Assembly (NCBI GenBank): GCA_002685955.1 | Contig: NYYU01000032.1 | Location: 1 to 34,452, forward strand | Length of the DNA stretch: 34,452 nt | DNA from: Parcubacteria group bacterium | GTDB taxonomy: Bacteria > Patescibacteriota > Minisyncoccia > Portnoybacterales > UBA2143 | Reading direction: 5' to 3' | Shown: positions 32,460-34,083 of the stretch, piece after piece | Layout: each line of letters begins with the position of its first letter | Numbering within the stretch: position 1 is the stretch's first letter | Notes under the pieces: generated by a model | The model's database searches: none | Seen by the model: the letters and a program-made list of their open reading frames with translations, nothing else | What the model was told of the DNA's origin: nothing | Translations under genes and position numbers: made by a program

Positions 32460-34083
32460 TTTATTGAGAGTTTGATCCTGGCTCAGGATGAACGCTGGCG
32501 GTGTGGATAAGGCATGCAAGTCGAACGGTCGCCTTAGGCGACAGTGGCGAACGGGTTAGTAACACGTAGGGATTTACCTTGAAGTCTGGAACAACTCGGA
32601 GAAATTCGAGCTAATACCAGATAGTGTCGCCTTAGGCGACTAAAGTTTTTCCGATTTATCGGAACTTCGCTTCGAGAAAAACCTGCGTCCTATCAGCTTG
32701 TTGGTAAGGTAATGGCTTACCAAGGCTATGACGGGTAGGGGGAGTGAGAGCTTGACCCCCAACAGAGGTACTGCGACACGGACCTCACACCTACGGGTGG
32801 CAGCAGTCGAGAATCTTCCACAATGGGCGAAAGCCTGATGGAGCGACACCGCGTGTTTGATGACTCCCTTCGGGGTGTAAAGAACTTTTCTGGAGGAACA
32901 ATCCCCCACCTAATTTGGATTTTAATAAGAGACAACCTTTAATTTTGTTTTAGGAACAATTTTATGTTGAATATTAATTTATTTGTTGTAGCTATAATTT
33001 TTGCAAAGCAAAAATTGTATCCAAATTAGGTGGGGGATGAGCGTACTCCAGGAATAAGGGGCGGCTAACTTCGTGCCAGAAGCCTCGGTAATACGAAGGC
33101 CCCAAGCGTTATCCGGAATCACTGGGCGTAAAGCGTGGGTAGGCGGTTTTGATAGTGGCTGGTTAAATTCTGGAGCTCAACTCCAGAGCGGCTGGTCAAA
33201 CGTCAAAACTAGAGCAAGTGAGAGGCTAGTGGAACTTACCAAGTAGGGGTGAAATCCGTTGATATGGTAGGGAACGCCAAAAGCGAAGGCAACTAGCTGG
33301 TGCTTAGCTGACGCTGAGCCACGAAAGCGTGGGGAGTGAACGGGATTAGATACCCCGGTAATCCACGCCGTAAACGATGTCAACTAGCCGTCTGGAGTAT
33401 CGACCCTCTGGGTGGCGAAGCTAACGCGTTAAGTTGACCGCCTGGGAAGTACGGTCGCAAGACTAAAACTCAAAGGAATAGACGGGGACTTGCACAAGCG
33501 GTGGACCATGTGGTTTAATTCGACGACAAGCGAGGAACCTTACCAGGGCTAGACATCCTAATGAAAGTCTATTGAAAAATAGACCTTCTCTCAAGGACAT
33601 TAGGGTCAGGTGGTGCACGGTTGCCGTCAGCATGTGCCTTGAGGTGCTCCCTTAAATGGGTTAACATGCGCAACCCTCGCCCTGTGTTACAAGTGTCACA
33701 GGGAACTGCCTCTGAATAAGGGGAGGAAGGCGAGGATGACGTCAAATCAGCGTGTCCTTTGATGCCCTGGGCTACACACGTGGTACAATGGCCAAGACAA
33801 AGGGTCGCCAAACCGTAAGGTGGAGCTAATCCCATCAAACTTGGTCCCAGTTCGGATTGAGGGCTGCAATTCGCCCTCATGAAGTCGGAATCGCTAGTAA
33901 TCGTGAATCAGCCATGTCACGGTGAATACGTTCTCAAGTCTTGTACTCACCGCCCGTCACATTAGGGAAGCCGGTAGTACCCGAAGTCTCTCTTTTTAGA
34001 GGGCCTAAGGTAAGATTGGTGACCAGAATGAAGTCGTAACAAGGCACCGGTAGCGGAAGCTGTCGGTGGATCACCTCCTTTCT
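32460..34083 (+). rRNA. rrs: 16S ribosomal RNA with internal insertion
   Basis: AGAGTTTGATCCTGGCTCAG at 32467, GGCAGCAGTCGAGAAT, GTGCCAG..GCC.CGGTAATAC, AAACTCAAAGGAATAGACGGGG, GGATCACCTCCTTTCT 3' end. Confidence 0.98.
32901..33038 (+). repeat. 138-nt insertion in 16S rRNA (H17/V3 region) bounded by perfect 20-bp inverted repeat; possible intervening sequence (IVS)
   Basis: atcccccacctaatttggat (32901-32920) / atccaaattaggtgggggat (33019-33038); internal palindrome aatttttgc-aaa-gcaaaaatt (32996-33016). Confidence 0.9.

Follow-up and report, generated by a model that had tools for sequence, protein, structure and literature searches.

A short inverted-repeat insertion in the 16S rRNA gene of a Parcubacteria bacterium and its probable kinship with GIY-YIG nuclease-bearing elements

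The 16S rRNA gene of the window (the whole stretch of 34,452 nt that was analysed) is interrupted at the tip of helix 17 (h17) by an insert which is probably a non-autonomous, MITE-like member of a family of GIY-YIG inverted-repeat elements. Like MITEs, the insert is short, has no ORF and is bounded by terminal inverted repeats (Table 1). Coding members of the family would carry one gene only, that of a single-domain UPF0213-like GIY-YIG endonuclease, and such inverted-repeat elements seem to find shelter in the hairpin tips of essential RNAs. A broader proposal, to which somewhat less than even credence is given, is that these sequences represent a distinct minimal transposable element. It would consist of a single-domain GIY-YIG nuclease flanked by matched terminal inverted repeats, would have MITE derivatives and would insert into hairpin-forming DNA, so that structural RNA genes serve as safe harbours; in this genome, 16S, 23S and RNase P RNA would all be occupied at once.

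Table 1. Features of the window that are discussed in the text.
Feature	Position	Strand	Evidence or remark
RNase P RNA gene	7983..8646	+	P1/P2 5' strands at 7983-7999; P3 uninterrupted in G004 orthologue
GIY-YIG inverted-repeat element, RNase P P3 loop	8001..8292	+	292 nt; repeats 8001-8024 and 8269-8292
Single-domain GIY-YIG nuclease ORF, 84 aa	8017..8271	+	PF01541, 63.3 bits
36-nt palindrome with the same repeat as the P3 element	8507..8542	+	in place of P12, RNase P RNA
rnc, RNase III, candidate processing enzyme	29862..30548	+	TIGR02191, 249.3 bits; dsrm domain
16S rRNA gene, host of the insert	32460..34081	+	RF00177, 1415.9 bits, full length
ORF-less inverted-repeat element, helix 17 tip	32901..33038	+	repeat, folding, related copies elsewhere
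Left terminal inverted repeat, ATCCCCCACCTAATTTGGAT	32901..32920	+	conserved in nine copies
Inner hairpin against the right arm	32993..33019	+	hairpin here in most other copies too
Right terminal inverted repeat, ATCCAAATTAGGTGGGGGAT	33019..33038	+	covaries with left arm across copies

The Insert at the Helix 17 Tip

The gene listed in Table 1 is the single 16S match in the assembly (84% complete), and ~122 nt at its h17 tip remain unaligned to RF00177. This alignment and the complementarity of the arms (20 nt each, 100% complementary, 98 nt between them) bear out the earlier note, which had placed here an insertion closed by a perfect 20-bp inverted repeat, while the arms and the folding agree with the long stem and AU-rich interior that it had described. 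The 138-nt insert has a minimum free energy of -50.2 kcal/mol vs -22.5 +/- 3.7 for dinucleotide shuffles (z -7.5, 0/200). In the fold of the h17 region its arms prolong the native h17 stem, and the inner hairpin has 11 bp. The direct repeat at this copy consists of AT only, with no longer target-site duplication visible. Same-family relatives have a short native hairpin at the h17 tip (e.g. AATCCCGACTTTAGGTCGGGATGAG in L011), so that the net gain amounts to ~117-121 nt, and the outermost pairs of the insert may be those of native h17.

Since group I and II introns abound in CPR 16S genes (PMC11270868), a degenerate self-splicing intron was considered as well. This origin is hardly credible: no Rfam intron matched at gathering score in the whole window, as had been anticipated, the insert is 138 nt long and forms one closed stem without an intron core, and intergenic DNA also holds copies of this family (see below).

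Comparison of about 70 16S genes of the class, suggested earlier as a search for inserts at the same site, revealed that 12 of them carry more than 100 nt at the exact h17 tip (the window, L024, L030, L031, L037, L040, L045, L048, L049, L058, L065 and L153). Eleven of the 12 inserts were folded and all of these prolong the same stem; the insert of L153 has paired arms. Several are unrelated in sequence, CCTCACTGCGTTCGG-type ends occur in six, and a GIY-YIG gene is present in those of L031 and L153. To judge from these sequences, the h17 tip is a recurrent insertion target. A separate observation concerns L065 (the 16S of G030), the h17 insert of which has its own small ORF of ~50 aa, MAEKKKAQKSVRKSLQEGYEASAEDNRQFAEKALPLFLEVIKEQESEEE, which is not GIY-YIG.

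These data also bear on the view that the insert is an h17 expansion segment, grown by slippage and drift and kept in the mature 16S, with no mobile origin. The h17 tip does vary in length within the class (28-51 nt in genes without inserts), and the native hairpin of relatives has the same outer pairs as the insert. However, segment lengths are bimodal, either 28-51 nt or at least 160 nt with none between 51 and 160 nt, and all five members of the family with a readable h17 (G001, G004, G006, G007 and G008) possess the short native hairpin only, so that the insert is no expansion segment common to the whole clade. An identical insert throughout the clade had been named as evidence against recent mobility, and the absence from these five favours mobility instead. 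The expansion-segment view, already weakened by the intergenic copies and by the presence of sequence relatives elsewhere in other genomes, is thus regarded as very improbable.

Related Copies Outside the 16S rRNA Gene

A search of the own assembly with the whole 16S insert matched only the insert itself, which is therefore not a high-copy repeat here; the subfamily has a single copy in this assembly, and its dispersed copies lie in related genomes, in a 23S gene and at several intergenic sites. BLAST at E values up to 10 returned mostly AT-rich chance matches, and only matches with both arms were kept. The same ends (C-rich and CACCTAATYTGGAT) were found within the order both in a 23S helix 63 (H63) and in intergenic DNA. 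The nearest copy, with 85% identity over insert positions 71-136, resides in the 23S H63 of contig G004:C27, which may be misbinned, since G004 has another 23S gene. A full copy lies between ftsA and ftsZ in G017, and further full copies occupy intergenic-looking sites in G018, G016, G022 (two), G019 and G002 (two), bringing the intergenic copies to seven or more sites. Because the family is found in intergenic DNA, rRNA processing does not define the element.

The terminal arms are conserved as a pair. Across nine aligned copies, pairing at the 20 terminal positions is kept in 95.6% of cells, compensatory changes occur in 8 of the 20 pairs, and the covariation score of the arms exceeds all 500 shuffles and all slid controls, which indicates that the arms are maintained as a pair, whether in rRNA or not.

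The region upstream of ftsZ in G018, a member of the same genus as G017, lacks the element. Presence and absence thus vary at h17 and H63 within the family and upstream of ftsZ in one genus, which speaks for mobility. A reading of the G017/G018 pair as an empty-site duplication was dropped, since the flanks are too divergent although the element is absent in G018. Pattern matches at L101, L102, L107 and L112 were likewise discarded as having no partner arm, and L076, in the RNase P RNA of G020, was a chance match.

Immediately downstream of three intergenic ORF-less copies (L103, L105 and L113) comes a CTTGAC(A)-like promoter -35 box, and a CTTG(A/C)C repeat borders each copy on its other side. 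The elements may favour promoter regions as a second target.

Elements in the RNase P RNA and 23S rRNA

The 5' end of the RNase P RNA gene given by Rfam, 8269, is ~286 nt too late, because an inserted element separates the 5' strands of P1 and P2 from the downstream remainder of the gene. The P3 element has inverted repeats of 24 nt each, and at its site the RNase P RNA of G004 has an ordinary P3 of 17 nt. Since the element interrupts P3, its GIY-YIG ORF lies within the RNase P transcript. The nearest solved chain of the ORF product is 1zg2, a UPF0213 protein, and the Y, Y-G, R and E columns are conserved. A palindrome in this RNA had been reported in the earlier note; it is indeed present, with a length of 36 nt, but it is not the whole of the feature, the ORF-carrying inverted-repeat element being the larger part overlooked.

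A third member, 62 nt long, ORF-less and bearing the repeats of the P3 element, is found in H63 of the own 23S. In a pattern search of the assembly that allowed up to two mismatches, the 16-nt repeat with fewer than two mismatches occurred nowhere outside P3, P12 and 23S H63; the rRNA and RNase P genes make up ~0.6% of the assembly. Four 23S genes (G001, G004:C19, G007 and G008) have H63 in a short form, and three (G000, G002:C7 and G004:C27) have it filled, each by a different element. The genome is a draft bin, and binning errors are possible, since G004 and G002 each have two different 23S genes. In the RNase P RNA of G003, a CACC-type inverted repeat, ACCCCTCACCTTA, spans 63 nt near P12.

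The suggestion that the 16S insert and the RNase P feature have an element end in common gains support from their CACC-type repeats, from the matching nuclease clade and from the third place, in 23S H63. The motif CCCCCACC occurs 6 times in the window vs 0.45 expected (0/100 shuffles reach 6), twice in the 16S insert and four times in the RNase P RNA. Identity of the two elements was rejected, as the motif and the repeat type are common to both and the sequences diverge beyond them; judged on this divergence, they are different subfamilies.

Two more inserts were noticed in the own 23S (L223, G000:C24), at 1470-1665 and 1720-1865. The ends of the former, CGCGCTTCACTATTGTTCAGCACTC / GAGTGCCGAGCGATAGCGAGGCGCG, resemble those of h17 inserts of the CCTCACTGCGTTCGG / CGAGCGTAGCGAGG type in other genomes of the class, with which it may form a second, ORF-less palindromic family.

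GIY-YIG Nucleases and Their Terminal Repeats

Relatives of the GIY-YIG gene reach up to 11 copies per genome. Terminal repeats (score of at least 13) flank 48 of the 85 GIY-YIG entries, a few places being listed twice among these, vs 1 of 153 control placements of equal geometry in the same loci. Of 37 elements, 16 have direct repeats of at least 4 bp at their flanks, compared with 5% of mismatched flank pairs. The type of repeat tracks the nuclease clade: 31 proteins with three repeat types require two changes on the tree, which is the minimum, on a tree of 80 columns built from short proteins and with few resolved branches.

A coding partner with the same ends as the 16S insert exists in other genomes, where two nuclease elements of the CACC clade, L157 and L128, end in CCCCCACACCTAATCGGCAT and CCCCCACACCTAATTTGCTT, the corresponding end of the 16S insert being CCCCCACCTAATTTGGAT. 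The own assembly (84% complete) yielded no nuclease with ends of the CACCTAAT type. In G022, a nuclease-bearing element and ORF-less copies have identical outer bases. It might be argued that the repeats around GIY-YIG ORFs have nothing to do with the ORF-less elements, both being palindromes that are alike by chance or through a common C-rich bias, the more so as CCCC/GGGG ends are low in information and many GIY-YIG ORFs (37 of the 85 entries) have no such repeats. Outer ends of 14-15 nt common to L157, L128 and the ORF-less copies, together with the clade association and the rarity of repeats in controls, render a chance likeness unlikely.

Elements of one repeat type are spread over h17, H63, P3, P12, a tRNA-like 5' end and intergenic sites, and a single conserved homing site, expected of a GIY-YIG homing element, was not found. 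Roles in homing, repair, restriction and retrotransposition have been described for GIY-YIG nucleases (PMC1564403); they are not known as transposases of inverted-repeat elements. Beside these data, the GIY-YIG element L125 (G023:C23) was seen to have GTGATTAG-type direct repeats and to lie next to GATTAGCTCAG, a lookalike of a tRNA 5' end.

For an inverted-repeat family of this kind, we infer nuclease-driven movement, with mobilisation of the ORF-less members in trans. A nuclease matched to its own terminal repeats would nick or cut DNA, and repair of the break or strand transfer would copy the element into a new place. At hairpin tips, i.e. in h17, 23S H63 and RNase P P3 and P12, the arms would then pair and lengthen the host helix. 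Elements could survive there in essential RNAs because the host helix merely becomes longer, and their survival in h17, H63, P3 and P12 is consistent with arm pairing that spares the RNA core.

Possible Fate of the Insert RNA

In pre-16S rRNA, the arms would pair over 20 bp, with an AU-rich domain on top. The insert may therefore also be read as a classical rRNA intervening sequence (IVS), comparable to those in the 23S of Salmonella and Coxiella, in which case RNase III would cut the stem, the insert would be lost without religation and the 16S would persist as two fragments. Such a reading, given an almost even chance, is compatible with a mobile-element origin. It agrees with the perfect 20-bp stem, the AU-rich interior, the position at a variable rRNA tip and the presence of rnc, correctly recognised in the window beforehand, and processing of RNase III type has been proposed for short CPR 23S inserts (PMC11270868). 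On the other hand, the experimentally studied IVSs cited in that work are in 23S, and the same-family copies in intergenic DNA mean that rRNA processing is not what defines the element. The IVS label given in the earlier note therefore holds as far as a stem-closed insert in an rRNA gene is concerned, but not in the sense of something that exists merely at the RNA level. As rnc is preserved in CPR bacteria (PMC12641178), its presence is not diagnostic of processing of the insert. Cleavage of the 20-bp stem by RNase III is plausible, and the chances appear about evenly divided between an insert kept as an extension of h17 and one that is cut by RNase III, leaving the 16S in two paired pieces.

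Relation to Known Systems

Brown et al. 2015 were reportedly the first to note short unclassified and GIY-YIG-encoding insertions in CPR rRNA genes. According to Tsurumaki et al. 2024 (PMC11270868), insertions occur in 48% of CPR 16S genes, many of them short and unclassified, most lie at the tops or bases of stem-loops, and the GIY-YIG ORFs, all in non-intron inserts, were placed outside spread by homing. The elements described here are alike in their position at stem-loop tops, in being short and ORF-less or encoding GIY-YIG, and in not being group I/II introns, and the 16S insert would have counted among the short insertions of that survey (PMC11270868). Inverted repeats, RNase P, intergenic copies and a link between GIY-YIG and ORF-less inserts go unmentioned in its main text (PMC11270868).

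RNase III-processed IVSs of Salmonella, Coxiella and Campylobacter resemble the family in the long stem, the AU-rich loop, the location at a variable helix tip and, for some, the presence of an ORF. Their ORFs, however, belong to the S23p/23S_rRNA_IVP family and not to GIY-YIG; moreover, related copies here are also found outside rRNA, and excision is a prediction. MITEs and REP/RAYT-type palindromes are likewise small inverted-repeat units devoid of an ORF, the coding partner being separate and having the same ends, but their partner is a DDE or Y1 transposase and not a GIY-YIG nuclease, and the copy number per genome is low here. With GIY-YIG homing endonucleases of the I-TevI type the elements have in common the catalytic domain and a selfish existence inside conserved genes, whereas the terminal inverted repeats, and the lack of an intron or intein, of a single homing site and of an extra DNA-binding domain, set them apart. 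Rickettsia palindromic elements, which are palindromic selfish units that insert into genes, offer a further likeness; they are not known to have an associated nuclease, and they are unrelated to the present family in sequence and host.

No description of an inverted-repeat GIY-YIG element, be it with MITEs or in RNase P RNA, was found in a literature search confined to published papers, few of them under subscription, and priority is not firmly claimable. The common ends and the association of nuclease and repeat offer one testable origin for part of the unclassified or GIY-YIG inserts of CPR bacteria, the latter of which the published survey was unable to assign. The presence of an ORF within RNase P RNA, together with inserts that top single-copy rRNA helices, raises the question of whether 16S, 23S and RNase P RNAs are fragmented in these cells. 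Inserts in h17, which belongs to the V3 region, will in addition disturb 16S surveys.

Elsewhere in the window, a gene with HTH and SocA/Panacea antitoxin domains (24249-25040) overlaps the next small ORF (25027-25371), and the two look like a toxin-antitoxin pair.
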